64,000 bases of DNA from Campylobacteraceae bacterium (GTDB lineage Bacteria; Campylobacterota; Campylobacteria; Campylobacterales; Arcobacteraceae), in the NCBI GenBank assembly GCA_013373175.1, contig JABXII010000027.1:1-64000 (forward strand). Reading direction: 5' to 3'. The notes under the pieces were generated by a model that searched no databases, was not told the origin of the DNA, and saw only the letters and a program-made list of their open reading frames with translations. The position numbers were made by a program, and so were the translations under genes. This document shows, in pieces, positions 31,046 to 54,259 of this stretch. Positions within the stretch are counted from its first letter, which is position 1. Each line of letters begins with the position of its first letter.

Positions 31046-32218
31046 TTAACTCTCTAAGCTTTTTAAAATACTTCTTGCTCTTTTCTTTTGGTAAGGGTTT
31101 TTAACTACTTGTTTTAAGATTTTAATAGAAGCTTCTTTATCATCTAGTTCGTAAAAGCATAGTGCCTTTAATATCTCTTTTTCTCCAGCAGTTTTAGAGT
31201 TTCTTTTTGTTTTTATTGTATTTAAAGTAGAAATACTACTTTTGAACTCTTGCTTTTGATAATATAAATTAGCAAGGATTAGTTTATATTTGTTTTCATT
31301 GCCATACTTTGACGTTTCAATTTTTTTGATTGCTTGGTCAATATCTTTTGCATTTACATGTGTTGAAACAAGTAGTTCAAATATCTTTTTATCTTCTTTT
31401 ATTAAACCAGTTTCTACAGCTTTTGTAAGTAAGTCGTTTGCTTTTTTATAAACACCATTTTGTAATGAGATATTTATAAAATATAAAATATTGTTTTTAT
31501 TTTTTAAAACGCCATTTTTATAAGCTAATTCTAGAGTTGCTAAAGAGTCTTTTAGTCTATTTTTTTCTTGATATAAAGAGGCAAGTTGAACCCAATAACT
31601 TTCGTTGTCACTAAAAAGTTTAACCATGATTTCCATAGTTTTTATTGCATTATTATAATCTTTTACTTCAACATAAGAAGAATAAAGGATTTTATACCAA
31701 GATTCTTTGATTTTCTTTTTAGATGAGAAATACTTTTTTGAATACTCTATACTTTTTTTGTATTTTTTATCATAATAATAAGCTAGTATAAGTGTTTCGT
31801 AAACATCATTTTTCTTTAAAACTTTGCTATTTAAAAGTTTACTTGAAAGATTAATACTTGGTTTATATTTTTCTAATGATAAATAAATTTTTGATAGTGA
31901 AAATTTGATTTTATCAATGCTGTCTTTTTCAAAAGCATTGTATTTTATAATTTGTTCATATGTTTTTGCAACTTTTTTGTAGTTGTCATTATGAATATAT
32001 ATATTACTTAATGTTTGTAAGATATATGACTTCTCATAATCATTTTTAGAATCACCTTTTAATAGTTCTTCTAGCATTTTTTTTGAAGTTTTATAATCTT
32101 CTTTTTCTATTAATTTTTGTGCTTTCATTAAGCTATTGTATGTACTTTTTGACATATGCATTTTTGCAAATGCACTACTGTAAAAACAAAGGAACACTAT
32201 TAACAATATTTTTTTCAT
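31046..32218 (-). CDS. Secreted TPR-repeat protein of the TonB operon
   Basis: This 390-residue protein has a signal peptide (MKKILLIVFLCFYSSAFA, about 1-18) followed by repeated helical pairs typical of TPR (YKTSKKMLEELLKGDSKN, YKKVAKTYEQIIKYNAFEKD, YNNAIKTMEIMVKLFSDNES, EFKSSISTLNTIKTKRNSKT). It is periplasmic. A TPR protein closes the TtpC-ExbB2-ExbD2-TonB2 operons of Vibrio, and its position here, 5 bases after tonB, is the same. There it supports TonB function in ferric-siderophore transport. It is the last gene before the terminator. Confidence 0.87.
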   Translation of the reverse strand: MKKILLIVFLCFYSSAFAKMHMSKSTYNSLMKAQKLIEKEDYKTSKKMLEELLKGDSKNDYEKSYILQTLSNIYIHNDNYKKVAKTYEQIIKYNAFEKDSIDKIKFSLSKIYLSLEKYKPSINLSSKLLNSKVLKKNDVYETLILAYYYDKKYKKSIEYSKKYFSSKKKIKESWYKILYSSYVEVKDYNNAIKTMEIMVKLFSDNESYWVQLASLYQEKNRLKDSLATLELAYKNGVLKNKNNILYFINISLQNGVYKKANDLLTKAVETGLIKEDKKIFELLVSTHVNAKDIDQAIKKIETSKYGNENKYKLILANLYYQKQEFKSSISTLNTIKTKRNSKTAGEKEILKALCFYELDDKEASIKILKQVVKNPYQKKRARSILKSLES

Positions 32219-32223
32219 CTTAA

Positions 32224-32850
32224 CTACCTTGCTAATCTAAAGTTAAATGTGATTGTTGCATTTTTAAAACTTCCTGCAATATCATCTTTTGAAGGTTTAA
32301 ATCTCCATCTTTTGATAGCTTTGATTGAAGCTTCATCAAATACACCTTTAGGGTTTGAATCAACAACTTGTACACCTGATACAAAACCACTAGAATCAAT
32401 CTTAAATGTTAGTTGAACAAAACCTTCTTGTCTTCTTATTTTTGCACGTCTTGGATATCTTGGATTTACTCTTTTAAGTGCAGTTAACATATTTGCATCT
32501 AAAAGATTTGAACCAATATTTATTTTGGCACCTGTTAAAGAATTGATTGAAGAGATATCAATATTTTGTCTAATATCTAAAGGCTTAATTTTCACATTTT
32601 TATTTAGTTCTTGATTTAATTGTGTTTTTAATTCTAATTTTTTTGGTTCTACTTTTTTAATTGGCTCTTTAGGTTTAACTCTTTTTTTCTTTTCAATAAC
32701 CGTATCTTTTTTATCTCTTAAATAAGTAAGTTGTATAGGTTTTGTCTCTTTTTTTATATGTTCACTTTGAGTTGATGTCATTTTTTGCATCAATACAAAC
32801 ATTGCAATTGAGATAACAAGAGATACGACTACAGCTATTAATATTCTCAT
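32224..32850 (-). CDS. tonB: TonB energy-transducing protein (TonB2 type)
   Basis: The product has 208 residues with one N-terminal membrane helix (about 3-21) and a Lys/Pro-rich linker (VKPKEPIKKVEPKKLELK) across the periplasm. The TonB C-terminal domain at about 125-207 includes NPRYPRRAKIRRQEGFVQL and DEASIKAIKRWRFKPS. The short length fits TonB2-like proteins that need an extra TPR or TtpC partner. It carries proton-motive energy from ExbBD to outer-membrane receptors, four of which are encoded in this window. It sits directly after exbD. Confidence 0.93.
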   Translation of the reverse strand: MRILIAVVVSLVISIAMFVLMQKMTSTQSEHIKKETKPIQLTYLRDKKDTVIEKKKRVKPKEPIKKVEPKKLELKTQLNQELNKNVKIKPLDIRQNIDISSINSLTGAKINIGSNLLDANMLTALKRVNPRYPRRAKIRRQEGFVQLTFKIDSSGFVSGVQVVDSNPKGVFDEASIKAIKRWRFKPSKDDIAGSFKNATITFNFRLAR

Positions 32851-32851
32851 T

Positions 32852-33256
32852 TTAATTCTTTAGTGTAGAAATAGATATATTTGTAATTCCAGCAAGTCTT
32901 ACTTGGTCCATAACTTTAACAAGTACACCTGTTCTTGCATCTTTGTCTGATTGAACTACAACACTACTTTGCGTATTTGAAGCTTTAAGTCTTTCTATGT
33001 TTGATCTAATTGCTCTAATATCAACCATTCTTTTGTCAATCCATATTTCATCATTATTTTTAATAGCTATTAAGATATTTGCTTCTGCTTTTTGTTGACT
33101 TGTTTTTGCACTTGGTCTATTTACTTCAATTCCTGCTTCTTTTACAAAAGAGGTTGTAACAATAAAGAAAATTAACATAATAAAAACAACATCAAGCATT
33201 GGTGTTAAGTTTATTTCTGTCTCTTCTTTATTGCTTTTTTGTGAAAATCTTCTCAT
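32852..33256 (-). CDS. exbD: Biopolymer transport protein ExbD
   Basis: The product has 134 residues with one membrane helix (about 21-40) preceded by INLTPMLDVVFIMLIFFIVTT. The Asp in PMLDVVFIML (about residue 23) is the conserved proton-handling residue of ExbD/TolR. A periplasmic alpha/beta domain follows (VVVQSDKDARTGVLVKVMDQVRLAGI). It is one base away from both exbB2 and tonB genes, so translation is probably coupled. Confidence 0.95.
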   Translation of the reverse strand: MRRFSQKSNKEETEINLTPMLDVVFIMLIFFIVTTSFVKEAGIEVNRPSAKTSQQKAEANILIAIKNNDEIWIDKRMVDIRAIRSNIERLKASNTQSSVVVQSDKDARTGVLVKVMDQVRLAGITNISISTLKN

Positions 33257-33257
33257 T

Positions 33258-33776
33258 TTATAAAACCTTTGATATTTCTAAATATAACTTATCTGTATGG
33301 TACTTTATTGATAGTTCTAATTTTTTTTCAAATAGTATTCCACTAAGAGCAACTACCATTCCTGCCATTGTTGGAATTGTTGCCATTGATACACCATTTG
33401 CCATTGATTTTACATTACTAGTACCACTTAGTGCCATTACATCAAATACTTCAATCATTCCTGTAACAGTTCCTAATAAACCAACTAATGGACAAACTAT
33501 AATCAAGGTCTTTATAAAGCTAAGACCTGATTTTAGTTTGATGTTTGATTCTTCAATTAAATATTTTTTTATCTCTTCTTTAAACTTTTGATTAAATTCA
33601 TTTTGTGATAATTCTTGCTTTAAAGCTTTTGCATATTTTTTATATTCAAAGCTAATGTAAATATATCTTTCTATAAGCAATGCCCAAAGGAATAGAGCAA
33701 TTGCAAATACAATATATAAAACAAAACCACCTTTATCAAAAAAGTTAAAGAAGTTATCTATGTATAAATCAATCAT
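33258..33776 (-). CDS. exbB: ExbB2 proton-channel protein (short form)
   Basis: This 172-residue MotA/TolQ/ExbB-family protein has three hydrophobic helices (about 17-35, 88-110 and 133-152) and the core GLSFIKTLIIVCPLVGLLGTVTGMIEVFD, which lines the ion path with ExbD. It is the second ExbB-type protein in the operon, as in the Vibrio TonB2 system, where a short ExbB2 works with the longer TtpC. Gaps to neighbours are one base each. Confidence 0.93.
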   Translation of the reverse strand: MIDLYIDNFFNFFDKGGFVLYIVFAIALFLWALLIERYIYISFEYKKYAKALKQELSQNEFNQKFKEEIKKYLIEESNIKLKSGLSFIKTLIIVCPLVGLLGTVTGMIEVFDVMALSGTSNVKSMANGVSMATIPTMAGMVVALSGILFEKKLELSIKYHTDKLYLEISKVL

Positions 33777-33777
33777 G

Positions 33778-35094
33778 TTATTTTAATGTTTTTGCTAACA
33801 TTCCTATACTTTGCTCTTCTAATACAGATACAATAGCTTCAGCTTTTGAAGAAATATATGTATATGCGAAAAGTAAAGGAATAGCTGTAACAAGACCTAA
33901 AACAGTAGTGATAAGTGCAGTTGAAATTCCACCTGCCATAAGTTTTGGGTCACCTGTACCAAATAAAGTAATAGCTTGGAAAGTTGCAATCATACCTGTA
34001 ACAGTTCCTAATAATCCAAGTAATGGAGTAACTGCTGCAAGAAGTTTTACAAAGCTTTGACCTTTTTTGATATGATTTGTCTCTTTTAAAATTGCTTCAC
34101 CAATTTTTATTTCTAAATCACTAATTGAGTTATTTACGTTTTTATAAAATACTCCTGCAATTTTTCCTAAAGAGTTTGTATCATCATAGTTTTCTAAGTT
34201 CTTTTGTTGTTTTTTTATTTTTTTATGAACTATATTTAAGAATACAATCTTATAAGCTGCAAATAGTAAACCTAAAACACCAAGAGTGATAATGATATAT
34301 CCTACAATTCCACCTTGATTAATTCTATCCATGATTGTTGGATTATTTCCAAGCATTTCAAAAAGAGTTCCTCTTGTAGGGTCAACAAGTGCTTGTTTTA
34401 TTTCATTTGAACTTTGCTCAAACTCTTTTGCATTTGAAATATCTCCTGAAGAAGGTTGTGTTGATAGTTCAATTAGTGAGTTTATATCATTTGAATATTT
34501 TAAGAAATTTCCATTTGAAAAAGCAGAAAATACACCAACTCTTGTAACATCTTGAATATTTCTTTCACCATTTTGTAAAATAACATTTGCTTGATATGTT
34601 GATACTTTTCCACTTTGAATAATTTCATCTAACATTGTATGCCAAAATGAAGTTAACTCTTCAATTGTTGGTAACTTTTTAGAGTTAGAGAATTTTGTAA
34701 AAATCTCTTCTTTTTGTGGAAATTGTGAAGCAGTAAAACTTCTTTGGTAGTTTGTTAAAAAGTCTGCTGATGTTTGTCTTACACTTCCAAACATCTCTCC
34801 TAAATCACCAATTTTTATATTTAACTCTGCTTCTTTTTGAGTTAAAACTTCTTCATTTGCTTCAATAAGTTTTTTAAGTCTATTTGTTTGAGCATTTTCT
34901 TGTCTTAATTCTTTTTTTACATTTTCTAATAGAATTTTTTGTTGGTTTTTATTTTCAACAAACTCTTTTAATCTTTTTTTCTCATCTATAATCTCTTTAT
35001 TTGATGTTTGTTTAACGCTATTTAATAAGTTTTCTAAATCAAGAGCAAAACTTGAGTTTATAATTAATAGTGTTGCTAAAATATATTTAATCAT
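33778..35094 (-). CDS. TtpC-like long ExbB protein
   Basis: The product has 438 residues. It has a signal peptide (about 1-17) and a long periplasmic coiled coil (about 18-130, with QKILLENVKKELRQENAQTNRLKKLIEANEEV-type heptads). An alpha region follows, then a membrane helix at about 262-282 and the ExbB/TolQ channel core at about 335-430 (SFVKLLAAVTPLLGLLGTVTGMIATFQ, ISTALITTVLGLVTAIPLL). The N-terminal extension before an ExbB core is the hallmark of TtpC, the extra component of TonB2 systems. The start codon overlaps the DUF3450 gene stop (TAATG). Confidence 0.92.
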   Translation of the reverse strand: MIKYILATLLIINSSFALDLENLLNSVKQTSNKEIIDEKKRLKEFVENKNQQKILLENVKKELRQENAQTNRLKKLIEANEEVLTQKEAELNIKIGDLGEMFGSVRQTSADFLTNYQRSFTASQFPQKEEIFTKFSNSKKLPTIEELTSFWHTMLDEIIQSGKVSTYQANVILQNGERNIQDVTRVGVFSAFSNGNFLKYSNDINSLIELSTQPSSGDISNAKEFEQSSNEIKQALVDPTRGTLFEMLGNNPTIMDRINQGGIVGYIIITLGVLGLLFAAYKIVFLNIVHKKIKKQQKNLENYDDTNSLGKIAGVFYKNVNNSISDLEIKIGEAILKETNHIKKGQSFVKLLAAVTPLLGLLGTVTGMIATFQAITLFGTGDPKLMAGGISTALITTVLGLVTAIPLLFAYTYISSKAEAIVSVLEEQSIGMLAKTLK

Positions 35095-35840
35095 TAGTTA
35101 TCCTTTTGACTTAAAAATGGAAGATTTAAGAAATCAACATTTTGATGTTTTTTAGCAATTTTAATACCTTTTCTGATATTAGCTTTTGCATTTGAATTAT
35201 CAATCTCAACCCAAGATTTAGTTTCATTATTCCAATAACCATAATTTTTTAAATCTAAACTTTGATAGTATAATGCTGTTCTTCCTAGTCTTAAGAAGTC
35301 ATATGTCGTGTCATTTATTTTGTCTTGATAAGTTTCAATACTATTTGCATAGTCATATTCAATTTTAAATGCTTCTAGAATAATTCTATATTTTTCAGCT
35401 GTTTTGATATCTGCTTTGTCAAGGCTTTTTTCAAGTCTATTGATTCTGTCAGTTCTTTCTTCAAGTAAGAATGGAGTGTCCATTTCAACTAGTTTTTTTA
35501 AACTGTCAACCATATTTAACATAAGAGGAAAAATGTTTTTTTGCGTATTTTCAATATCTACAATTTGTTGGTCAATATTTACAAGTTCTTCTTTTTGTGA
35601 TTTAAGAATTTTTCTAAGTTGTTCGTTATATACTCTAGTACTCTTTAGTTCGGCATTTGTATATTTATACTTGCTAAGAAGTTCTTCTCTTTGATATTCT
35701 GCATTATCTATTTTATTTTGATAATTTTTTAATTTATTATTAGTCTTTTCTATTACTTCTAGTGATTTGTCAATCTCATTTGAGAATAGTGAAGTTGAAA
35801 AGATTAATGAAAATAAAATAGTATTAAATAACTTACTCAT
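35094..35840 (-). CDS. DUF3450 coiled-coil periplasmic protein
   Basis: The product has 248 residues from the ATG at 35840. An open frame goes 13 codons further, but AAGG precedes this ATG and the signal peptide then starts at residue 1 (MSKLFNTILFSLIFSTSLFS). A coiled coil fills about 20-110, and the rest is helical (MLNMVDSLKKLVEMDTPFLLEERTDRINRL). DUF3450 proteins precede ttpC in TonB2 operons of marine gammaproteobacteria, and the gene order here is the same. The exact job is not known. The upstream region holds a strong Fur-like box. Confidence 0.88.
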   Translation of the reverse strand: MSKLFNTILFSLIFSTSLFSNEIDKSLEVIEKTNNKLKNYQNKIDNAEYQREELLSKYKYTNAELKSTRVYNEQLRKILKSQKEELVNIDQQIVDIENTQKNIFPLMLNMVDSLKKLVEMDTPFLLEERTDRINRLEKSLDKADIKTAEKYRIILEAFKIEYDYANSIETYQDKINDTTYDFLRLGRTALYYQSLDLKNYGYWNNETKSWVEIDNSNAKANIRKGIKIAKKHQNVDFLNLPFLSQKDN

Positions 35841-35864
35841 TTCTAGCCTTTTAGTATTAATTTT

Positions 35865-35883
35865 GAGAATTATAATCATTTAA
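35865..35883. promoter_or_regulatory. Fur box of the TonB energising operon
   Basis: GAGAATTATAATCATTTAA matches the E. coli 19-base Fur consensus at 14 positions by my count, and the inner TGAGAATTATAATCA fits the 7-1-7 pattern with two mismatches. It is 25 bases upstream of the DUF3450 start. The same 18-base core recurs before the PepSY operon at 47686. Confidence 0.65.
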
Positions 35884-35934
35884 ATATAAAATTAAACTTA
35901 TACAAAAATTACATAAATAATTTGCTAAATTATT

Positions 35935-36513
35935 CTATAAAAAAATTCTTGCTAAATTTGTGAATACAGAAGAGTTAGAGTTATTAAATCTAAAAATTGA
36001 TTCTTTTATATGAGTTTCAATATTTGTTTTATTTATTCCTCTAAATTTTTTTAGTCTATTATTAATAAAATCATTTAAACTATTTTTTGTGTTCATATAT
36101 CCTAAGACAATATATTTATTGTTACTATCTTTTAATAGTAGTTTTGCACAATTTATTTTTTTATTTCTTATTAAACTATTTTTCACTTCATCTTCTATTT
36201 CAAGGTCAAACTCTTTTAATAAGACTGTTTCCTTGTTGTATTCTATATAAAATGTATAGTTTTTATTAAGTATAAAGTATTTTAAATAACAATATTTTGG
36301 TTTATGTTTATTTGACTTTTTTTGAGTATTAGTAATGAAAGTCCGTAACTGTTTGTAGTATTTATTTATAGTTACTCTACTTATATTTACTTTTTGTGAG
36401 GCTTCACTTGCAGTTAAGTCATCACTAAAACACTTACAAATATTTTCTATGGTTGAGTTATCCATTTTTTTACTTCTTAAGTAATAATTATTATCTATAT
36501 CATAATTCTGCAT
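35935..36513 (-). CDS. IS1595-transposase-derived helix-turn-helix protein lacking the catalytic core
   Basis: The product has 192 residues. The N-terminus (about 17-60, TIENICKCFSDDLTASEASQ, then VNISRVTINKYYKQLRTFI) matches the DNA-binding helix-turn-helix of IS1595-type transposases. The last 50 residues (NDFINNRLKKFRGINKTNIE, then THIKESIFRFNNSNSSVFTN) match their C-terminal end, where transposases have FW-YAK-RL-KFNGI and LHLKE-EFRFN. The DDE catalytic middle (VDESYFG and the SDGW-like motif) is absent; the centre is short and unrelated. I see no terminal inverted repeats. It therefore looks like a domesticated DNA-binding protein, divergent from a TonB receptor gene. The start may instead be M17 (36465). 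Confidence 0.7.
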   Translation of the reverse strand: MQNYDIDNNYYLRSKKMDNSTIENICKCFSDDLTASEASQKVNISRVTINKYYKQLRTFITNTQKKSNKHKPKYCYLKYFILNKNYTFYIEYNKETVLLKEFDLEIEDEVKNSLIRNKKINCAKLLLKDSNNKYIVLGYMNTKNSLNDFINNRLKKFRGINKTNIETHIKESIFRFNNSNSSVFTNLARIFL

Positions 36514-36633
36514 ACAGAATTTTAATAAAAAAATATGTGGAAAATATGTGGATGAATAGTTTATTAATTATTGTGCCAACTTATCATGTTTACTTTTTTG
36601 TAATTGTAGATTAAGCTTAAATAAGCAATTATC

Positions 36634-36652
36634 GATTTTAATAACTATTATC
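36634..36652. promoter_or_regulatory. Fur-box-like site before the first receptor of the 36665 unit
   Basis: On the minus strand the site reads GATAATAGTTATTAAAATC, with 13 of 19 positions matching the E. coli Fur consensus. It ends 12 bases before the ATG at 36665 and directly abuts the AAAAGGAAGAG ribosome site. A related sequence precedes the next receptor gene at 38887. Confidence 0.55.
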
Positions 36653-36664
36653 AAAAGGAAGAGA

Positions 36665-38749
36665 ATGAAGATTAAAAGTAATAGGTTTATTAAGTTGTCT
36701 ATTTTTACTGCTCTTATTATACAAACTCAAGTATTAGCAAATGAAAATGAAGCAAAGAAGAATAACCTTAATACCTTAGATTCTGTAATGATTTATGGAG
36801 AAAAAGAAGAAACAACATCTGCTACGAAACTAGATATGACTATATTTGAAACGCCCCAAGCAGTATCTGTTGTATCTGATGTACAAATCGATGATTACAA
36901 CTTAACTGACACAGCAACAGCCCTTGAGCAAGTTGCTGGGGTAAGAGTTGAAAGAACAGAAACTGATCGTACCTATTATAATGCAAGAGGATTTAATATT
37001 GTTAATTTTCAATATGATGGTGTGGGTGTTCCTTCAAGTGGAACATTCCATGGAATTGAAGATATGTCAGCTTATGAACAAGTTGAAGTTGTAAAAGGAG
37101 CTACTAGTATTATTAGTTCTTTATCTAATCCTTCTGCAACTGTGAATTTTGTTAGAAAAAAACCAACAGATGAGACTAAGGCTTATATTTCAACTTCTTA
37201 TGGTAGTTGGAATCAAAAAAGAGTTGAGGGTGATATTTCTGGAACAATAATTGATGATAAATTAAAAGGAAGAATTGTTGTTGCAAAACAAAAGGGTGAT
37301 TCATATTTAGATAGATATTCAAGTGATGTTACTTCTTTTTATGGTGTTTTAACTAGTGACCTTAGTGATACTACAAGAGTAACTTTTGGGCACAGTATTA
37401 ATGATAATGACAATAGAGGTATTTCTTCTGGAGCCTTACCATTATTTTATAGTGATGGCTCAAAGACAAAGTATGATGTCTCAACAAACACGGCACCAGA
37501 TTGGGCAAGAAAAGAGTTGACTCTTTCTAAAACTTTTCTTGAATTAGAACAAGATATTACTAAAAATTGGTCAGCAAAAGCTATATACTCTCATAATGAA
37601 TTAGAGACTGACTGGGATTGGTTCTATTTAGATGGAAATCCAAATAAGGGTACTAATACAGGATTATCTTCTCTTGCTTCTAGATATGAAGAAGAGAAAA
37701 AAGTAGATGTAATAGATATTTTTGCCTCTGGTTATTTTGAAGCGTGGGGAAAAGAACATAAAGTTGTTTTTGGTGTAAATCATGCAGATATTGATACAAC
37801 TGCTAAATCAATATACCCATCAACTGGAGGAACTTATCTTCCTATAGGTGGAAATTGGATGAGTGGAAATACTTCTAAACCTGCTTTCTATAAACACGAT
37901 CCAGAAACTAGTAGTACTGATACAAATGAAAAACAAACAGCATACTATATCTCTTCTAGATTAAATATATTAGATAACTTATCTATTTTATTAGGGGCTA
38001 GAGCAATTGATATTAGACAAGATGGGGTTTCTTATGAAGCTTCTCAAGAAGTAGATGAAAATGAAGTAGCTTCTTATATAGGTGCTGCTTATGAAGTAAT
38101 TCCAGGGACTATGTTATTTTCAAGTTATAGTGAGGTATTTAATTCTCAAAGTTATGTAAATGATAGTTTAAGTCCTTTAGGAGCTGTTGAAGGAAAAAGT
38201 TTTGAAGCAGGAATAAAACAAGAATTAAATGATGGAAATGCAATCTTATCTTTATCATATTTCAAATCTGAACAAGAAAATTTAGGGGAGTATGTAAGTC
38301 AACATGCAACAGGTCTAAATATATATAAAGGAATTTCAGTAGAGAGTGATGGTTTTGAACTTGAATTAGCAGGTGAAGTTTCTGAAGGCTTGAATTTAAG
38401 TATGGGATATACATATGTAAATATTAAAGATGAAGATGGAAATAAAGCAAGAAGATATATTCCAAAGAAAGAGTTTAAATTATCAAGTGCATATCAGCTT
38501 TCTTCAGCACCATTAAGAGTTGGAGCTTCATTAAGATGGCAAAGTGAAGTTTATTCAGAAGATAAAGAAGCACAAGATAGTTATGCACTAATTAATACTT
38601 TTGCACGATATAAAGCAGCAAAAAATTTAAGTATAAATTTAAATATAAACAATATTACAGATGAAGAATATAAACTTACTGCACAATGGGGTCAATCAAA
38701 CTATGGCGCACCTAGAAATGCAACAATTAGCTTAAAATATACATTCTAA
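36665..38749 (+). CDS. TonB-dependent siderophore receptor
   Basis: The product has 694 residues with a signal peptide (about 1-25, VLA-NEN), a TonB-box-like DSVMIYG (about 40-46), and a plug domain with TPQAVSVVSDVQIDDYNL and YNARGFNIVNFQYDGVGVPS. The last matches the FhuE/FpvA/FoxA group, where RGF and DG motifs are typical. VKGATSIISSLSNPSATVNFVRKKP follows, and then a barrel ending in LKYTF. It likely imports a ferric hydroxamate or pyoverdine-like siderophore. The start is ATG with AAGGAAGAG. It is followed after 170 bases by a second receptor of the same type. Confidence 0.94.
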   Translation: MKIKSNRFIKLSIFTALIIQTQVLANENEAKKNNLNTLDSVMIYGEKEETTSATKLDMTIFETPQAVSVVSDVQIDDYNLTDTATALEQVAGVRVERTETDRTYYNARGFNIVNFQYDGVGVPSSGTFHGIEDMSAYEQVEVVKGATSIISSLSNPSATVNFVRKKPTDETKAYISTSYGSWNQKRVEGDISGTIIDDKLKGRIVVAKQKGDSYLDRYSSDVTSFYGVLTSDLSDTTRVTFGHSINDNDNRGISSGALPLFYSDGSKTKYDVSTNTAPDWARKELTLSKTFLELEQDITKNWSAKAIYSHNELETDWDWFYLDGNPNKGTNTGLSSLASRYEEEKKVDVIDIFASGYFEAWGKEHKVVFGVNHADIDTTAKSIYPSTGGTYLPIGGNWMSGNTSKPAFYKHDPETSSTDTNEKQTAYYISSRLNILDNLSILLGARAIDIRQDGVSYEASQEVDENEVASYIGAAYEVIPGTMLFSSYSEVFNSQSYVNDSLSPLGAVEGKSFEAGIKQELNDGNAILSLSYFKSEQENLGEYVSQHATGLNIYKGISVESDGFELELAGEVSEGLNLSMGYTYVNIKDEDGNKARRYIPKKEFKLSSAYQLSSAPLRVGASLRWQSEVYSEDKEAQDSYALINTFARYKAAKNLSINLNINNITDEEYKLTAQWGQSNYGAPRNATISLKYTF

Positions 38750-38779: not shown

Positions 38780-38886
38780 GATATTTAGAAGAATTTTAAT
38801 ATCTAATAATATTATGCTCTACTTATCATGTTCAGATATTTTACAATTTTTTTCTAAGAATAATTAAGAAATAATTCGGCTATCTT

Positions 38887-38919: not shown

Positions 38920-41022
38920 GTGAAAATAGGAAATAAAAAGATAATAGGTCTGTCTCTTTGTGCAGCCTTCTTAATCCATAGTTCAGTATTCGCAGCTGAA
39001 AATGAAAAAGATAAAACATCACTTGGAACAGTTAATATTGTAAGTTCAAGTGATACAGAATCAACTGGTTCTTATACAATTGATTCTATGAAAAGTGCAA
39101 CAAAGTTAGATTTATCCATTAGGCATACACCACAATCAGTAAATGTATTAACAACACAAAAATTAAATGATTTAGGAATTACTTCTTATCATGAAATGCT
39201 TTCAAATGTTACAGGCGTATCATTAGATAGATGGGATGAAAGATTAAGAACAAGTGCAAGAGGGTTTGAAATTGATTATTTCAAAATTGATGGAATGCCA
39301 ACTTATCTTACATATAATGATAGAGATTTAGATTTAGATATTTTTGACAGAGTTGAAGTTGTAAGAGGAGCAAATGGTTTAACTACAGGTGCAGGAAATC
39401 CTGCAATAAGTATAAATTTAGTTAGAAAAAGAGCTAAATCAAAAGAGTTTAAAGGTACTACAACTGTATCTGCAGGTTCGTGGGACGCATACAGTATAAA
39501 TACTGATATTTCCTCATCACTAAATGAAGATGGAAGTATCAGAGGTAGAATTATTGCTAAACATGAAGATAAAAATTCATTTATGGATGGATATGAAAAA
39601 GAGAATAATCTTTTGTATGGTGTTGTTGATATTGATATATCTGATAAAACATATTTATCATTAGGAGCAAGTTATCAAAATATTGAAAGAGATGGAGTTA
39701 GGTGGGGTGGTTTACCTGCATTTTATACTGATGGAAGTAGAACAAATTTTGATAGGTCTTTAACTGTTTCTGATGATTGGACTTATTGGAACACTGAAAT
39801 TAAATCAGTTTTTGCAAATTTAGAACAAGTATTATTTAAAGATGTGAATCTTAATGTTGCTTATTCATATGATGAGATAGATAATGAAAATGCCATGCTA
39901 TATTTTAAAGGAGCAGTTAATAAAGCTGATGGTAGTGGTATTTCATATATGGATTGGGAATCAGAACAATCAAGTAAACAACATAATCTAGATATAAATG
40001 TAAATGTTCCTTTTGAAGTTGCAAATCTACCACAAGAAATTATTTTTGGTACATCATATAATCTTGATAAAACTACTAGATATGAAGGTAGGTATCCAAA
40101 TGGGTATTATACTGCTTTACCTAACTTCTTTGATTATAATTTATCACTTCCAGCGCCAGCTGCAACAGATACTCCTTATTCTGTAGCACCAGAAGAGACA
40201 CAACAAAAAGCTATTTATTTAGCTGGTAATTTTTCATTATCAGAAGATTTAAAATTAATTACAGGGGCAAGAGTTTCAACTTGGGAATATAAAAGTGATG
40301 CTTCTTCAATTGAAGAAAGAGAATTCAAAAATGAAGTTACTCCTTATATAGGTTTAGTTTATGATATAAATAAAAATCATTCAGTATATGCAAGCTATAC
40401 AAGTATATTTAAACCAGGGGATGATAAAGATAGAAGTGGGAACTTTCTTGACCCAGTAGAAGGTATTAACTATGAAACTGGAATTAAAGGTGAATATTTT
40501 AATGGAAGACTAAATGCTTCATTATCTGTTTTTAGAATAGAACAAGATGGAATTGAAGATGATGGTGCACCAATTGGTGGAGAACAACCAAAAAAATTAG
40601 TTGATGGAGTTACTAGTAAAGGTTTTGAATTAGATTTTAATGGTCAAATAACTGAAAACCTTGATTTATCTTTTGGTGTATCAAACTTTGAAGCAAAAAC
40701 AGCAGATGGAGAAAAATTTGATACAAAATCATCTAGAACTACTGCAAATATATTTGCTAAATATTCTATAAATAAATTTGATATAGGTGCAGGAGTGAAG
40801 TATAAAAGTAAAATTTCAACTGGAGCAGGAGTACAAAAAATTAAGCAAGATGGATATGCTTTAGTTAATCTAATGAGTTCATATAAAATTGATAAAAACT
40901 CTAAAATCCAATTAAATGTAAAAAATTTATTTGATAAAAAATATTACTCAGGAATTGGGGTTAATAGCATGGTTTACGGTGACCCAAGAAACTTTACTGT
41001 AAGTTATAAATATACTTTCTAA
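38920..41022 (+). CDS. TonB-dependent siderophore receptor
   Basis: The product has 700 residues, starting at GTG (38920) with AAGGAAA upstream. It has a signal peptide (about 1-26, VFA-AEN), a TonB-box region GTVNIVSSS (about 36-44), a plug with TPQSVNVLTTQKLNDLGIT, ARGFEIDYFKIDGMPTYLTY and VRGANGLTTGAGNPAISINLVRK, and a barrel ending in SYKYTF. The RGF and IDGMP motifs again place it in the FhuE/FpvA/FoxA-like group. It is paralogous to the receptor at 36665 and is followed by a terminator and then the response regulator/kinase pair. Confidence 0.94.
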   Translation: MKIGNKKIIGLSLCAAFLIHSSVFAAENEKDKTSLGTVNIVSSSDTESTGSYTIDSMKSATKLDLSIRHTPQSVNVLTTQKLNDLGITSYHEMLSNVTGVSLDRWDERLRTSARGFEIDYFKIDGMPTYLTYNDRDLDLDIFDRVEVVRGANGLTTGAGNPAISINLVRKRAKSKEFKGTTTVSAGSWDAYSINTDISSSLNEDGSIRGRIIAKHEDKNSFMDGYEKENNLLYGVVDIDISDKTYLSLGASYQNIERDGVRWGGLPAFYTDGSRTNFDRSLTVSDDWTYWNTEIKSVFANLEQVLFKDVNLNVAYSYDEIDNENAMLYFKGAVNKADGSGISYMDWESEQSSKQHNLDINVNVPFEVANLPQEIIFGTSYNLDKTTRYEGRYPNGYYTALPNFFDYNLSLPAPAATDTPYSVAPEETQQKAIYLAGNFSLSEDLKLITGARVSTWEYKSDASSIEEREFKNEVTPYIGLVYDINKNHSVYASYTSIFKPGDDKDRSGNFLDPVEGINYETGIKGEYFNGRLNASLSVFRIEQDGIEDDGAPIGGEQPKKLVDGVTSKGFELDFNGQITENLDLSFGVSNFEAKTADGEKFDTKSSRTTANIFAKYSINKFDIGAGVKYKSKISTGAGVQKIKQDGYALVNLMSSYKIDKNSKIQLNVKNLFDKKYYSGIGVNSMVYGDPRNFTVSYKYTF

Positions 41023-41113: not shown

Positions 41114-41800
41114 ATGTTAAAAGAAGAGTACAGAAAACTAAAAGTTCTATATGTAGAAGATGAAGATTTTATCAGAGAAAATGCAGTCTCATATTTAAAA
41201 AGATTTTTTGAAAATGTTTATGAAGCAAACGATGCTTTTAAAGCACTTGATATTATAGAAAAACAAAATCCCCATTTAGTAATAACAGATATAAAAATGC
41301 CAAAATTAAGTGGCTTAGATATGGTTAGAAAAGTAAGACAAGATGATAAAAAAACCCAATTTATAGTGCTTTCTGCTTTTACAGATAAAAACTATTTACT
41401 TGATGCAATTGATTTAGGCTTAGTAAAATATCTTACGAAACCCATTAAACATGACACAATTTTTCCCTTACTTTTAAAGTGTGCAAAAGAGAGTTTTGAA
41501 GATGAAACTAATAAAAAATATATAACTAAAACTACATATTTTGATAGTTTTGAGAAGGTATTGAAAGTTGATGATAAAGAGATTAGATTAACAAAAAGTG
41601 AAATATCTCTCTTAGAACTTTTATGTACAAAATACCCTAAAGCTGCAACATATGAACAATTGCAAAGTGATATTTGGCAAGATGAGTATATGAGTGAAAA
41701 TGCACTTAGACTTTTAATAAGAGATTTAAGAAAAAAGCTTCCAGTTAATTGCATTAAAAATATATCTAAACTTGGATATAAAATAGAACTTTATAAATGA
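41114..41800 (+). CDS. OmpR-type response regulator beside iron receptors
   Basis: The product has 228 residues. The receiver domain (about 8-125) has the acidic pair E15-D16, phospho-acceptor D59 in LVITDIKMPKLSG, and K in LTKPIKH. The winged-helix DNA-binding domain (about 140-225) contains LTKSEISLLELLCTKYPKAA, ENALRLLIRDLRKKLP and ISKLGYKI. It overlaps the kinase gene by 4 bases, which should be its partner. It is close to the second regulator of this window (53576-54259), with D59 in the same place. It lies downstream of two receptor genes, so it may control iron uptake. Confidence 0.93.
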   Translation: MLKEEYRKLKVLYVEDEDFIRENAVSYLKRFFENVYEANDAFKALDIIEKQNPHLVITDIKMPKLSGLDMVRKVRQDDKKTQFIVLSAFTDKNYLLDAIDLGLVKYLTKPIKHDTIFPLLLKCAKESFEDETNKKYITKTTYFDSFEKVLKVDDKEIRLTKSEISLLELLCTKYPKAATYEQLQSDIWQDEYMSENALRLLIRDLRKKLPVNCIKNISKLGYKIELYK

Positions 41801-43503
41801 TACGAATTGTTTTTTCTCTGTTTTTCTTTTTGTCTTTTTTATATGCAGATAAATTTAATCTTATTGAATCTGTAAAGATATCAGAAGATTTAACTAGTTT
41901 TAAAAATGCAAGATACCTTGATTATAAAGAAAAAAAAGTTAAACACTTTGCAATAAAAGTAAAGTTAAAAAAGAAAAAAGAGCTGAATAAACCCTATTAT
42001 TTAACAGTCATTTCTGATTATGAAAATTTAACCAATACAAATGCAACTTATAAAAATTATAATCATATGATGCTTATAAAACTTGATAAAACTACCCCTT
42101 CTATTTTATATTTTGAGTATGAATATGATCTTCCTAAAAGACCAGGTTTTAGGCTTAAAATCATATCTGAAAATGAATATAAAAATATATTGCCCTACGA
42201 AGGTATAATCTATGGAGTAGCATATGGAATAATCTTTTGTGCTTTTTTATACTATTTTATAATATATTTTTCCATAAGAAAAAAGTACTTTTTATACTAT
42301 TCAATTATGCAGTTTTTTGTACTTTTATCTTTGATAGGTTTTATGATTGTAAGTTTTAAACCATATCCAACAACACTTGCTCAAACTATTATAGATATAT
42401 TGGAAAACTTGAGTTTTATTTTTACTTTACTTTTTGCAAAAGAGATTTTAAATGCAAAAAACAAACTATCTTTTTCACGCAGTCTAATAAACTTCTTTTT
42501 ATGGATAAATATAATTGATATAGGAATTATTCTTTTAATTAATTATTCTTTATTATACGAATATATGCCATTTTATATAAGTTTTTTAGTTCCTTCTTTA
42601 TTAGGATTCCTATCAATAATTAATGGAAATAAAAATGCTATTATCTATACTATTGGTTGGAGCTTTATGGCAAGTTTTGTATTTATGGCAGAGAATAGTT
42701 TAATACCTTTTAGTGGAATTTATACTATTCATTTTGCAGCTCCTTTAGAATCATTAATTTTTACTTTAGCCCTTGCTTTTACTCTTAGAAAAATAGAGAA
42801 AGAGAAAAATGAAAATGAAAAACTTTTAATACATAAAGAAAAATTAGCCTCAATGGGAGAGATGATAAATAATATTGCCCACCAATGGAGACAACCACTT
42901 ACTCATCTTAGCTTTATAAATATGAATCTACAAATGGCTTCCTATGATAACAAACTCTCAAAAGAGTATCTAGATGAAAAAATAGAAGAGTCAAACACAC
43001 AATTAGAATTCATGTCAAATACAATTGATAGTTTTCGAGATTTTTATAAACCACAAAAGGGCAAAGAAAACTTTTACTTATCAAAAGCTGTAAAACAAGC
43101 AGTTGATATTATGTCTGAATTATTAAAAAAAGAGAATATTGAATTAGAACTAGATATTAAAAAAGATAAAAAAATATATGCCTATGAAAATGAATATTCA
43201 CAAGTTGTTTTAAACTTAATTACTAATGCCAAAGATGTTTTAATACAAAGACAAATAGAAAATGCAAAAATAAAAATCACAATAGATAGTTATTTTGATA
43301 ACTCTTTTACCACTGTTTGTGATAATGCAGGTGGAATAAAAAAAGCTGATTTAAATAAAATTTTTGAACCATATTTTACTACAAAAGATAATGGAAGTGG
43401 AATAGGGCTCTATATGTCAAGGACGATAATAAACTCTCATTTTAAAGGTAAACTAAGAGTTGAAAATAAAAAAGAAGGTGCTTGCTTTACAATAGAGGTT
43501 TAA
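41797..43503 (+). CDS. 7TM-sensor (7TMR-DISM) histidine kinase
   Basis: This is a 568-residue kinase. A signal peptide (about 1-17) and a periplasmic beta domain of about 110 residues come first (YYLTVISDYENLTNTNATYK). Seven hydrophobic helices at about 132-330 begin GIIYGVAYGIIFCAFLYYFIIYF, as in 7TMR-DISM proteins. A coiled linker leads to the H-box NNIAHQWRQPLTHLS with phospho-acceptor H362. The ATPase domain shows NLITNAKDVL, DNAGGIKKADLNKIFEPYFTTK and GSGIGLYMS. Its gene overlaps the regulator by 4 bases and the convergent YitT gene by 4 bases. The signal is unknown; the gene context suggests iron or siderophore status. Confidence 0.92.
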   Translation: MIRIVFSLFFFLSFLYADKFNLIESVKISEDLTSFKNARYLDYKEKKVKHFAIKVKLKKKKELNKPYYLTVISDYENLTNTNATYKNYNHMMLIKLDKTTPSILYFEYEYDLPKRPGFRLKIISENEYKNILPYEGIIYGVAYGIIFCAFLYYFIIYFSIRKKYFLYYSIMQFFVLLSLIGFMIVSFKPYPTTLAQTIIDILENLSFIFTLLFAKEILNAKNKLSFSRSLINFFLWINIIDIGIILLINYSLLYEYMPFYISFLVPSLLGFLSIINGNKNAIIYTIGWSFMASFVFMAENSLIPFSGIYTIHFAAPLESLIFTLALAFTLRKIEKEKNENEKLLIHKEKLASMGEMINNIAHQWRQPLTHLSFINMNLQMASYDNKLSKEYLDEKIEESNTQLEFMSNTIDSFRDFYKPQKGKENFYLSKAVKQAVDIMSELLKKENIELELDIKKDKKIYAYENEYSQVVLNLITNAKDVLIQRQIENAKIKITIDSYFDNSFTTVCDNAGGIKKADLNKIFEPYFTTKDNGSGIGLYMSRTIINSHFKGKLRVENKKEGACFTIEV

Positions 43504-47704: not shown

Positions 47705-47746
47705 ATTAAAAAGACACTTAAGATTTTTTTTATCATGATAAGTAGT

Positions 47747-49671: not shown

Positions 49672-49700
49672 TATAAATGGTAAAAATATTACCATTTATA
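49672..49700 (-). promoter_or_regulatory. 12-bp hairpin at the receptor stop codon
   Basis: TATAAATGGTAA (49672-49683) and TTACCATTTATA (49689-49700) are perfect complements with a 5-base loop. The right arm contains the receptor stop codon. On the minus strand it is followed by A residues, not T, and then by the ribosome site of the next gene. It is therefore more likely an mRNA-stabilising or processing element than a terminator. Confidence 0.55.
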
Positions 49701-51779
49701 TTCAAAGTTAATACCAACTACTCTAGGGGCTCCTACTCTATATCTATAGTTAGAACCTGACTTTTGCTTACTTGTATAGTAAGTTTTGTCAAATAAATTA
49801 TTTGCAAATAAAGAGATTTCCCAATCATTTTGTTTATATCCAATTTTAGTATCAACAACTGTATAAGGACTAACTTTTAATGTATTTTCACTATTAGCAT
49901 AAGAACTTCCTGAATATCTTAAATTTGTTGCTAAATAAACATTTTTATCATTTTCCCAATATACTCCAGTATTAGCTGTAAAATTTGGTGTTTGTGCAAA
50001 CTCATTACCAGAATAATTTGTTCCATTGTTTTCATACTTTGTATATTCAGTACTAACATATCCCATACTTGTATTTAATCTAAATTTAGGATTTATATAG
50101 TAAGTAGCTTCAAGTTCTAAACCTTTTAGTTCTGATTCTCCCGCATTTTCGATATATTCATCTTCTGCAAGTCCAGAATCTCCTGAAACACTTAATTGTC
50201 TATCTTCCCATTTTGTATAGAAGATATTTGCATTAGCAATTAATGTATCATCTAACCATTTACTTTTAAATGATAGTTCGTAGTTATTTGTAAATTCTGC
50301 ATCATATTCTTTTGATTTTCCTTGAACAGGGTTAACAGAAACTCCTCCAGGTCTATAACCTTTAGAATATGTAAACCCAGTATTAATATTTTCAGTTAAT
50401 TTATAGTTGAATCCTATTTTTGGAAGGATATTATCAAGTTTACTATCAGCTTTATCATTACCTGGACCAACAAGGTTATTTATTGCATTGTCTACAACTG
50501 CATTTATACCAGCACCTAAATCTACACTTCTTTCAATAGCTAAATCTGAAGTATTTTCTCTTTTGTCTCTATCTGCTCTTAATCCAGTTATAATTGTCAA
50601 ATTATCTGTTAGTTGATAGTCTGAATTTAAAAATAGTGCATAGTTATGAAATTCTTCATATGCAGATTGATCATATTTGATTTTTAAACCTGCAAAAAGA
50701 CTACTAGCATCTGCATCAGTAATATTATAAGTTCTATCATTTTTTCCATTTGCATAATATAGTCCAATACTTGCTTTTAGTCTGTCTCCTTTGTAATCTA
50801 CTCTAAATTCTTGAGTAAAGTCTTTATTTTCATTTTCCATATCAACAGTTGATAAACCACGGTCTTCATCCCTATCTGTTTTTCTATCGTGGTCAGTATC
50901 CGTAAAAGTTGTGATAGATTTGAAATCCCAGTTTTCATTTAAATATGTTTTGTATTCTAATGAATGAGTATTAACTTTTGTTTGGTAGTATCCATCTGTA
51001 TTCCAAATATTAATTCTTTTTTCTGGGTCACCTGTAACTAAAGAATTTCCATTATCATTTTTATTTGTATGTGAAGTTGTAAATAATACTTGACTATCAT
51101 CACCAATTAAGTAAAGAAGTTTTCCTCTTAAGTTTAAACTTCTATTTTCTGAAAAATCATCTTCATTTAAATTTTTATTTTCAAGATATCCATCACTTCC
51201 TTTTCTTTGAGCAGTTAATCTAAAAGCCAAGTTTTCTGTAATTGGTCCTGTTTGCATTAATGAAAGGGATTGTGAATTGTATGAACCATATGATATTTTT
51301 CCCTTACCATTATGATTAAATTCTGGATCTTTTGTTTTTAAAACTACTGCTCCTGCAAGTGAATTCCTTCCTTGTGAAGTTGATTGAGGTCCTCTTAATA
51401 TTTCAACTTGTTCCATATCCCAAGTTGTTAAGGTATCAGCAGAAATGGAAAAAAAACTAAGAGGTGCTCCATCTAATGTAAAGTTTGTTGTCCCAATACC
51501 AGTATTAGTATCATATGAATCAATACCTCGGATTTTATATCCCCACCCAGTAGATTGAACATTTGCACTTTGATTAATTACACCAGAAAGGTCTTCATAA
51601 TTTGTATTATTTTCTAAACGTTTACTATCAAATACTTGAATACTTGAAGTACTGTCTTGTAAACTTCTATCAAGTTTATCTCCCATAATCGTTATTTCAT
51701 TTAGTTTTTCAGTTGCATTTAGAACAGTTGTTAAACTGATTGTTGCTAAACAAACAGCTGCAATTTTGCTTAATTTCAT
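49689..51779 (-). CDS. TonB-dependent receptor
   Basis: This is a 696-residue outer-membrane receptor. It has a signal peptide (about 1-22, VLNA-TE), a TonB box (LNEITIMGDK, about 26-35), a plug domain with NVQSTGWGYKIRGIDSYDTN and VEILRGPQSTSQGRNSLAGAVV, and a barrel ending in GINFEYKW. It ends in Trp rather than the usual Phe. The plug resembles that of the receptor at 25911 more than the FhuE-like pair. The start is ATG with GGAAG. It is first in an operon with the DUF3649-like and PepSY genes. The ligand is not predictable from sequence. Confidence 0.93.
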   Translation of the reverse strand: MKLSKIAAVCLATISLTTVLNATEKLNEITIMGDKLDRSLQDSTSSIQVFDSKRLENNTNYEDLSGVINQSANVQSTGWGYKIRGIDSYDTNTGIGTTNFTLDGAPLSFFSISADTLTTWDMEQVEILRGPQSTSQGRNSLAGAVVLKTKDPEFNHNGKGKISYGSYNSQSLSLMQTGPITENLAFRLTAQRKGSDGYLENKNLNEDDFSENRSLNLRGKLLYLIGDDSQVLFTTSHTNKNDNGNSLVTGDPEKRINIWNTDGYYQTKVNTHSLEYKTYLNENWDFKSITTFTDTDHDRKTDRDEDRGLSTVDMENENKDFTQEFRVDYKGDRLKASIGLYYANGKNDRTYNITDADASSLFAGLKIKYDQSAYEEFHNYALFLNSDYQLTDNLTIITGLRADRDKRENTSDLAIERSVDLGAGINAVVDNAINNLVGPGNDKADSKLDNILPKIGFNYKLTENINTGFTYSKGYRPGGVSVNPVQGKSKEYDAEFTNNYELSFKSKWLDDTLIANANIFYTKWEDRQLSVSGDSGLAEDEYIENAGESELKGLELEATYYINPKFRLNTSMGYVSTEYTKYENNGTNYSGNEFAQTPNFTANTGVYWENDKNVYLATNLRYSGSSYANSENTLKVSPYTVVDTKIGYKQNDWEISLFANNLFDKTYYTSKQKSGSNYRYRVGAPRVVGINFEYKW

Positions 51780-51798
51780 TTTACTTCCTTAATAAAAA

Positions 51799-51813: not shown

Positions 51814-51872
51814 ATTTGTGTGGGCGAAAGTTTAATAAAAAAGAGTGTCCAAAATATGTCCATTATAAAAAA

Positions 51873-53585
51873 TTATATAATTATATAAAATGAAGTACCT
51901 TTTTTAGAACTTTCTAAGCTTATTTCACCTTTTAAATGTGATTGAACTATTATTTTTGACATATAAAGTCCAATACCACTATTTTTATTTTTTGTTGAAA
52001 AGTAAGGTTCAAATATTTTGTTTATGATCTTTTTTTCAATTCCGTAGGCATTGTCACTAATTTTAAGTTTACTTTTTTTATCTTCTGTTTGAGAGAGCTC
52101 AATTTTTATTTCTTGATGACTCTTTTTTGATTCCAATAGTGCATCTTTTGCGTTAGTTAATATATTTAAAATAACTTGAATATACTCATTTTCATAGGAA
52201 GTTAGTTCTTTATCTTTTTTTATTTCAAAAGTTAATTTTATAGATTGTAAACTTGGTTTTATAATATTTATTGCTTTTTTAACTGTATTACTAAGCAAAA
52301 AATTTTCTTTTTGTTTATTTGGTTGATAAAAACCTTTAAAATCATCCAAAGTATTAGACATAAAATCAATTTGTTTTGTAGAGTCTTTTATTATCTGATG
52401 TAGATAGTTTTTATTTAAATCATTATTTTGTATTGCTAGTTGTAAATCCATGTTTATAAAGGATAAGTTTGCAAGAGGTTGTCTCCATTGGTGGGCAATA
52501 TTGTTTAACATTTCTCCCATAGAAGCCAATTTATTTTGTTGTATAAAAAGTCTTTCTTTTTCTCTTTTTTCTTTTATCATAAGTTTTAACTTATATCCTA
52601 AATAACTACTTAAGATTAAAGATTCTAATGGTAATCCAATAGCTAAAATTAAATTGTCATTTATATCAACTAACTGATATTGTTCAACAAGAAGGCAAAA
52701 TAGAATTAAAAGCCAACCTAAAATAAAATAGATAGACTCTTTAAATCCTTGAAAATAAGAAAGTACACTAAATAAAATCAAGACTGCAATCAATAGTGGA
52801 ATAGATATTATTTCATATAAGATAGTATCTTCAAAAATAAAAATTAGAAAAATATCTATCAAATTCAAAAATATTAGAATATCAAATATAGCCCTTATAT
52901 ATTTTTTGTATTTATTAAATGAAAGAATCTCTTTTGAAAATAAAATTATAGCAATTATAGTAATATTTTTTAAAGCAAAATCTAATACATTTTCCATATA
53001 GTTATATCCAAGATGAGTATTTAGGTAGTTCCTAAAAACTAGAACTGAAAGAATAGAAATTTGTAAATATGAATAAAATAAAACGGATTTTATTTTAGTA
53101 TTTAAGTAGATGATAAAACTATATAAAAAGGCACAAAAGATGATACCATAAGAGATACCCATAATTGTTTCTACATATTTTGAGAGTACTTCATATTCAA
53201 ATTGTGAGATAACAACAATATTAATATCAAGTATTTTTTCTTTTTTTGATTTAAATTCAAAATATATTTCATTAGGTGAGTTTTTATTTATCTTAAAAAT
53301 AATGCCATCTTTCTCAGTATTATAGTTAATATTACTACTAAATAATTCTTCTTTATCACATCTAAATCTTACATAGTATTGTTTATTTAGGAATTCTTCA
53401 TTATCTAAGATTAACTTGATTGAATAGTTTTTAAATTTTTCTTTTTTTAATATATTAGATGAAATACTTTGATATGTTTCTTTTTGATTCTTTAGTAATA
53501 TTTCAATATTTAAATCACGTAGATAAGAAGCTTTTATATTTGAAAAAAACAGCAGTAATATAAAACAATATTTGCCTAAAGACAT
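51873..53585 (-). CDS. 7TM-sensor (7TMR-DISM) histidine kinase, second copy
   Basis: The product has 570 residues with the same architecture as the kinase at 41797: signal peptide (about 1-19), a periplasmic domain of about 115 residues, a seven-helix region starting GISYGIIFCAFLYSFIIYL (about 143-161), linker, H-box NNIAHQWRQPLANLS with H365, and an ATPase domain (NILTNAKDALLE, DNAYGIEKKIINKIFEPYFSTK, NSGIGLYMS). The G1 motif reads DNAYG instead of DNAGG. It overlaps its response regulator gene by 10 bases. It lies upstream of a receptor operon in the same direction, so iron-linked signalling is likely. Confidence 0.92.
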   Translation of the reverse strand: MSLGKYCFILLLFFSNIKASYLRDLNIEILLKNQKETYQSISSNILKKEKFKNYSIKLILDNEEFLNKQYYVRFRCDKEELFSSNINYNTEKDGIIFKINKNSPNEIYFEFKSKKEKILDINIVVISQFEYEVLSKYVETIMGISYGIIFCAFLYSFIIYLNTKIKSVLFYSYLQISILSVLVFRNYLNTHLGYNYMENVLDFALKNITIIAIILFSKEILSFNKYKKYIRAIFDILIFLNLIDIFLIFIFEDTILYEIISIPLLIAVLILFSVLSYFQGFKESIYFILGWLLILFCLLVEQYQLVDINDNLILAIGLPLESLILSSYLGYKLKLMIKEKREKERLFIQQNKLASMGEMLNNIAHQWRQPLANLSFINMDLQLAIQNNDLNKNYLHQIIKDSTKQIDFMSNTLDDFKGFYQPNKQKENFLLSNTVKKAINIIKPSLQSIKLTFEIKKDKELTSYENEYIQVILNILTNAKDALLESKKSHQEIKIELSQTEDKKSKLKISDNAYGIEKKIINKIFEPYFSTKNKNSGIGLYMSKIIVQSHLKGEISLESSKKGTSFYIII

Positions 53586-54259
53586 TTAATTTTATATCCT
53601 AGTTTTGAGATATTTACTAAGCTGTCCTTAGGCAGTTTCTTTCTTAATTTTTTAACTAATGTTCTTAATGCATTTTCACTCATGATAGAGTCATACCAAA
53701 TCATATTTTCTATTTCTTCGTAGCTAACTGTTCTATCTTTATTTATACAAAGTAATTCTAGGAAAATACGTTCATTCTTTGATAATTTTATTTCTTCATT
53801 TTTATTTATTAATATTTTTTGTTTTAGTTTAAAATGACATTCCTCTGAAAAGGAAATAAAATCAGAATTTAATTCTTCTAAGTTTTTAGCACATTTAAGC
53901 AAAACAGGGTAAATATCATTATGTTTAATAGGTTTTGTCAAATATTTTACAAGATTTAACTCAATTGCTTCAAGTAAATATTTAGTGTCTAGAAATGCTG
54001 ATAAAACAACAATTTGACACCTTTTATCTTGTTCTCTTATTTGTTTTAAAAGTTCAAGTCCTGACATCTCACCCATTTTTATATCTGTAACAATAATATG
54101 AGGTTTTTCATTTTTGAAAATATCTAAAGCTTCAAAAGCATTTTTTGCAACAAGTGTTGTTTTAAATATTCTATTAAAATATGATAAAGCATATTTTCTT
54201 ACATTTGCCTCATCTTCTACATATAGTAGTTTTAAATTTTTTAAAGGATTATTACTCAT
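53576..54259 (-). CDS. OmpR-type response regulator, second copy
   Basis: The product has 227 residues: a receiver (about 8-125) with D59 in IIVTDIKMGEMSG and K in LTKPIKH, and a winged helix (about 140-225) with LSKNERIFLELLCINKDRTV, ENALRTLVKKLRKKLP and ISKLGYKI. It is clearly paralogous to the regulator at 41114. No Shine-Dalgarno precedes the ATG. Instead TAAAAT lies 7 bases upstream, exactly as in the paralogue, so the mRNA may be leaderless. It is the first gene of the regulator-kinase unit. Confidence 0.93.
   Translation of the reverse strand: MSNNPLKNLKLLYVEDEANVRKYALSYFNRIFKTTLVAKNAFEALDIFKNEKPHIIVTDIKMGEMSGLELLKQIREQDKRCQIVVLSAFLDTKYLLEAIELNLVKYLTKPIKHNDIYPVLLKCAKNLEELNSDFISFSEECHFKLKQKILINKNEEIKLSKNERIFLELLCINKDRTVSYEEIENMIWYDSIMSENALRTLVKKLRKKLPKDSLVNISKLGYKIKCL

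Follow-up and report, generated by a model that had tools for sequence, protein, structure and literature searches.

The closest described relatives of the protein considered here are the transposases of the IS1016 group (IS1595 family, DDE_Tnp_IS1595, PF12762), the sole group of that family without a zinc ribbon, and the terminal inverted repeats of the IS1595 family begin with GG (PMC8101967). For its promoter the nearest parallel is the PHO box, in which two 11-nt direct repeat units are bound head-to-tail by an OmpR-type regulator (PMC4415409). TonB-dependent receptor (TBDR) genes, such as those beside our gene, are subject in Arcobacter butzleri to cell-surface signaling by ECF sigma and anti-sigma factors (PMC3445524). 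The gene lies in a stretch of 64,000 nucleotides of DNA, here called the window (Table 1), and we refer to its product and the homologs of that product as family 1.

Table 1. Features of the window that bear on the family 1 gene.
Feature	Position	Strand	Evidence
TonB2-type operon: DUF3450, TtpC-like, ExbB, ExbD, TonB, TPR	31046..35843	-	
Family 1 gene, almost certainly a domesticated IS1016-type transposase, 192 aa	35935..36513	-	profile match E=1e-15; 29 intact copies
C-terminal helices RLKKFRG/HIKES-FRFN, residues 145-191, common to IS1595	35941..36081	-	alignment, AlphaFold2, profile-profile comparison
Middle segment, residues 74-140, beta-beta-beta-alpha-beta-beta, no catalytic D/D	36094..36294	-	AlphaFold2; alignments A1, A3
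N-terminal helix-turn-helix and long helix, residues 19-67	36313..36459	-	AlphaFold2 and alignment
Possible -10 hexamer TAAAAT, 5 nt upstream of ATG	36519..36524	-	sequence reading
11-bp direct repeat CCACATATTTT CCACATATTTT, proposed response-regulator box, -35 region of family 1 gene	36530..36551	-	shuffle test; genome scan
Degenerate copy of CTTGTCATGA-N22/23-TAAG module before TBDR1	36580..36635	+	
TonB-dependent receptor 1 (TBDR1), divergent from family 1 gene	36665..38749	+	
CTTATCATGT-N23-TAAG-N9-GAAATAATTCG module before TBDR2, proposed family 1 target	38822..38878	+	
TonB-dependent receptor 2 (TBDR2), Plug and barrel	38920..41022	+	domain search
OmpR-type response regulator, Response_reg and Trans_reg_C	41114..41800	+	domain search
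7TMR-DISM histidine kinase	41797..43503	+	domain search
CTTATCATGA-N12-TAAG module before small membrane protein/PepSY_TM operon	47717..47742	-	
11-bp direct repeat of paralogous system GGACATATTTT GGACACTCTTT, directly before TBDR 49689-51779, no family 1 gene	51840..51861	-	
Paralogous histidine kinase and response regulator (internal control)	51873..54259	-	

Kinship with IS1016 Transposases

Searches of Pfam and NCBIfam with the single protein assigned no family, one scan of the genome contigs found no relative, and searches of open-licence papers turned up no account of family 1. A profile of nine IS1016-type transposases (alignment A4), some of them from the order and others from plasmids in other phyla, matches the window ORF at E=1e-15 (hmmsearch) and, of all the ORFs in the window and in 50 related loci, picks out only family 1 and one sister family; profile-profile comparison (hhalign) agrees (99.1%, E=1.6e-18, 192 columns). 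The likeness to IS1595-like transposases that the initial annotation had read at both ends of the protein is thus real and far above chance, and the kinship it proposed is found by profile, though Pfam and NCBIfam alone miss family 1. The parts in common are the helix-turn-helix (HTH; D-TAS-A..-IS-TIN-YYK-R) and the C-terminus (RLKKFRG...HIKES-FRFN), and conserved CxxC pairs are absent from the family 1 alignment (A1), as for the zinc-ribbon-free IS1016 group. In a maximum-likelihood tree all family 1 proteins form one clade (100/99), separate from the mobile copies.

The AlphaFold2 model is confident (pLDDT 86, pTM 0.80) and lays out an HTH, then beta-beta-beta-alpha-beta-beta (the middle is also given as beta-beta-beta-alpha-beta-beta-alpha), then three helices. 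Its N-terminal helices span residues 19-30, 35-42, and 46-67, and residues S45, R46, T48, N50, Y52, and R57 are invariant in A1. The modeled middle, which the initial annotation had called unrelated to the transposase, could be a shrunken RNase H fold; the matches of a structure search (VIA-align), to retroviral integrase cores (Z 4.0-4.8) and to Mos1, were weak and fell below the tool's stated noise level, and Foldseek against the PDB gave no match to the model at E<=0.001.

Also borne out were the intact frame and the absence of terminal repeats, both noted in the initial annotation. The catalytic D, D, and E positions of alignments A3 and A4 are not retained in family 1, none of the DES, SDGW, and HINGIE motifs occurs in any of the 20 aligned members, and PF12762 is matched neither by the window protein, nor among the families listed for 20 members, nor in its own genome. 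The 192-aa frame is open from end to end. No IS-type flanking inverted repeats were found at 35000-37500; of nine control IS1016-type elements, seven have terminal repeats of the GGGGCT/GGCTCT type no more than 60 bp from the ORF. Most of the order's IS1016 copies proper are either multicopy or broken.

Relative to the IS1016 group, then, family 1 has the same domain order, with an N-terminal HTH free of a zinc ribbon and the same C-terminal RL-KF-G...HLKE-EFRFN, and by profile it is homologous over nearly its full length. Unlike IS1016 elements, it has lost the DDE residues and the terminal repeats, its middle is shortened, and it is found in single copy with fixed chromosomal partners. We are in little doubt that family 1 is a domesticated IS1016-type (IS1595-family) transposase.

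Conserved Neighbors of Family 1

Within the Arcobacteraceae family 1 occurs in 29 of 104 genomes, with intact genes in 28 of them (two in G048, giving 29 intact copies) and one split gene in G111. A TBDR lies within 10 kb of the family 1 gene in all 30 copies (within 1 kb in 23), a 7TMR-DISM-type kinase in 29 of 30 and an OmpR-type response regulator likewise in 29 of 30; at least one of the two signaling genes is within 10 kb in all copies. The best-scoring full-length kinase orthologs all come from genomes with family 1. The two family 1 genes of G048 (L038, 7530-8300 and 12272-12883) each have their own kinase, regulator, and half-site. A homolog in Arcobacter cloacae, a member of the same family as the source genome, is plasmid-borne and annotated "hypothetical protein" (WP_129013749.1); it is encoded next to a TonB-dependent siderophore receptor, and within a few genes of it there are also a sensor kinase and a response regulator.

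A constant tonB/exbB neighborhood, which the initial annotation had named as a check, did not hold: the tonB operon is within 10 kb of only 17 of 30 copies, against 30 of 30 for the TBDR. By genome, family 1 is enriched with the TonB2-type operon (23 of 26 operon-bearing genomes vs. 6 of 78 without the operon). Of the proposed regulator of TonB functions, what survives is a domesticated transposase that is probably a DNA-binding regulator, but the genes conserved beside it are those of a two-component system and a TBDR, not the tonB/exbB operon. Fur-like GATTATAATTCTCA sequences point to putative Fur control of the flanking iron units.

An 11-bp Direct Repeat before the Gene

Every family 1 homolog has an 11-bp direct repeat directly upstream of its ATG. 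In the window none of 300 shuffles reached its lag-11 repetition, and the whole genome has one near-perfect copy; there is one strong match per 20-kb locus. Lag 11 was best or tied in 18 of 20 upstream regions (p<=0.04 in 19 of 20), and in the CACAT class the repeat starts 38-41 bp upstream of the ATG. Because a -10-like hexamer lies a few bases upstream of the ATG, the sequence suggests a leaderless transcript.

The family 1 gene accordingly has the promoter layout of OmpR/PhoB target genes of the PHO-box type, with an 11-nt direct repeat in the -35 region and an OmpR-type regulator gene nearby. It differs from the usual targets of such regulators, which are transport or enzyme genes, in being transposase-derived. 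We think there is a good chance that the family 1 gene is a target of the response regulator. The earlier reading of family 1 as a regulator is probably sound as far as it goes, but it overlooked that the family 1 gene is probably itself an output of the response regulator.

Receptor Promoters with and without Family 1

In family 1-bearing genomes the TBDRs are preceded by a module CTTGTCATGA-N23-TAAG-N9-GAAATAATTCC, placed about 40-130 bp ahead of where the match begins. Sorted by eye, the module with TAAG in register is present in 22 of 29 genomes with family 1 and in none of 75 without it (Fisher p=8e-17, relatedness of genomes ignored), a co-occurrence that is partly linkage, the module and the family 1 gene being mostly in one locus. 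In L045 about 2 kb separate the module-bearing TBDR from the family 1 gene, G040 has a second module-bearing TBDR on another contig, and in G048 the gap is one base shorter; no N23 module accompanies family 1 at its loci in G139 or in the genera g15 and g16.

In a shorter form the module reads CTTRTCATGW-N12-TAAG and has a Fur-like box after it; this form stands before tonB, PepSY-type, and other iron-type operons, and also upstream of DUF3450 in L261-L286; its gap of 12 bp and the 23 bp of the longer module are one helical turn apart. As an operator of family 1 this shorter form is weakened, since three genomes without family 1 (G003, G017, and G056) carry it before the tonB operon. A further N12 match, in G050, which also is without family 1, has no Fur-like box and precedes an unrelated gene. 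The candidate operators are unlike the GGGGCT... terminal repeats of IS1016. Because the N12 form is present without family 1, part of the module, perhaps at least the CTTGTCATGA/TAAG portion, is probably read by another protein. The more specific candidate site for family 1 is GAAATAATTCC together with the longer spacing; this element is flanked by the module and the Fur-like box, close to the receptor gene start. That the family 1 protein acts on the receptor promoter is a reading we lean toward slightly.

What does the receptor gene carry when family 1 is absent? In G110 and G127, which are without family 1, the TBDR orthologs (54 and 53% identity) have the repeat directly before them, whereas in family 1-bearing genomes it is the family 1 gene that has the repeat, and an element of another kind, with fixed spacing, precedes the TBDR. 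The paralogous two-component system of the window (49689-54259) likewise has its 11-bp repeat directly before a TBDR. G109 (L317, 8422-9400) has no family 1 gene and keeps a reversed direct repeat and a partial receptor module; perhaps it lost family 1, possibly recently.

A Model and Its Alternatives

On balance, and with moderate confidence, we propose that in the Arcobacteraceae a transposase-derived regulator has been wired between a two-component system and TBDRs, which are outer-membrane receptors for nutrients apparently of iron type. An IS1016-type transposase has lost its DDE residues and terminal repeats and been retained as a small protein. The kinase would phosphorylate the OmpR-type regulator, which in that state would bind the repeat located at the -35 region, switching on the family 1 gene. 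The family 1 protein would in turn bind the receptor promoter at the candidate site CTTGTCATGA-N23-TAAG-N9-GAAATAATTCC, most specifically at GAAATAATTCC, and would most likely activate receptor transcription on top of Fur repression. Both its binding to DNA and the sign of its control are inferred.

Would family 1 turn the receptors on or off? Divergent gene pairs that share an intergenic region are often repressor-target pairs, and the family 1 gene and TBDR1 have this layout. In addition, the candidate element GAAATAATTCC is located close to the receptor gene start, with the module on one side and the Fur-like box on the other. Family 1 might then repress the divergent receptor gene, and perhaps itself, with the two-component system turning receptors off. 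However, where family 1 is absent, a repeat of the same regulator class occupies the receptor's -35 region, which is an activator layout, and activation is favored because an activating family 1 keeps the sign of control. We therefore rate repression as unlikely, and propose only tentatively that family 1 is an activator rather than a repressor.

Since the repeat precedes every family 1 gene, it might be an operator of the family 1 protein itself, through which the gene would be autoregulated. Yet the repeat also stands before TBDRs beside two-component genes without family 1, and OmpR/PhoB regulators typically bind 11-nt repeats arranged head-to-tail (PMC4415409). Moreover the half-site, repeated within each locus, varies among loci and follows the recognition-helix class of the neighboring regulator: CACAT pairs with ENAxRLLxRDLRKK, GCC(A/C)T with (E/D)DAxRSxxR(N/K)LR, and CTCA(C/T) with D(S/N)SLRTLV(R/K)SLR, a pairing that further family 1 members fit and that follows clades, so that the loci are non-independent. 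Because the half-site varies with the regulator while the family 1 HTH is almost invariant across members, the repeat is likelier to be read by the response regulator than by family 1, and we consider autoregulation improbable.

Family 1 retains the transposase HTH and IS1016-type copies circulate in the order, and one could imagine that it was kept for a non-regulatory role, such as one in which it would occupy IS ends and so protect against transposition of IS1016; its fixed partnership with receptor and two-component genes would then be unexpected and there is no GGGGCT-type end at the locus, which makes such a role very improbable.

Least probable is that the gene is a decaying IS remnant, open by chance: the G111 homolog is split and the IS1016 copies proper in the order are mostly broken, but family 1 is under purifying selection (dN/dS 0.10-0.26), and where the initial annotation had set against its own proposal a picture of scattered, disrupted orthologs, we found 29 intact copies, one split, and a conserved neighborhood with fixed partners and promoter. 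In G111 (L127, 9575-10034) the gene is divided between two reading frames, and the receptor module is still intact.

Other IS1595-Derived Families

Family 2 (alignment A2; e.g., G000:C34:66946-67593 (-) and L128, 7950-8621), a second domesticated family, combines a zinc ribbon and an HTH with a changed middle and a conserved C-terminus. It has no complete catalytic triad. Among 200 genomes of the order many score strongly for it, and almost all of these have a single copy. In most of 20 sampled loci it adjoins hypB/C/D/E/A/F or hydrogenase genes, names that were assigned by reading the sequences, and some loci also have nickel/cobalt-type transporter genes. The middle of its structure model is of low confidence and the structure matches are mostly to the HTH. 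Searches of open-licence papers turned up no transposase in hydrogenase clusters. Family 3 comprises IS1016-derived proteins of about 200 aa without DDE residues, which adjoin argH in three genomes that belong to a single family (L179, 9062-9664; L180, 9458-10084; L181, 3839-4426; and L182, 7-390), the fourth copy being truncated at a contig edge; in the tree its members L158, L161, and L164 nest inside mobile IS1016 sequences.

These observations point to repeated domestication of IS1595-type transposases. A bolder proposal, which we put forward at somewhat less than even confidence, is that in the Campylobacterota there have been at least three domestications into catalytically dead, neighborhood-bound proteins (family 1 between regulator and TBDR, the zinc-ribbon family 2 by [NiFe]-hydrogenase maturation genes throughout the order, and family 3 by argH within one family), and that insertion of family 1 rewired its circuit, the regulator box moving from the receptor to the family 1 gene and the receptor gaining a new element.

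Comparison with Known Systems

In the family 1 circuit a transposase has probably been put to new use within the regulatory circuitry of a bacterium. Related genomes include both circuits that contain the tamed transposase and circuits that lack it, and the two states occur together even within one genome (the paralogous system at 49689-54259); the entry of a tamed transposase into a regulatory cascade is therefore directly testable. If our reading is true, it also offers a candidate function for widespread "hypothetical protein" entries such as WP_129013749.1.

Eukaryotes offer well-known examples of transcription factors derived from transposases (FHY3/FAR1, SETMAR), but few such cases are documented in bacteria. 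Passages of one review describe Ner/SfsB and Xre antitoxins as bacterial regulators co-opted from mobile elements, and name no bacterial case of the family 1 kind (PMC8987985). In all of these, as in family 1, DNA-binding proteins of mobile elements have been reused for control of host genes; family 1 stands apart in being at once bacterial, derived from a DDE insertion-sequence transposase, and probably placed downstream of a two-component system. Closer in lineage is the ECF system of A. butzleri, which belongs to the same bacterial family and likewise sets a dedicated regulator beside a TBDR; there the regulators are ECF sigma factors, whereas the proposed family 1 circuit joins a two-component system to a transposase-derived protein.
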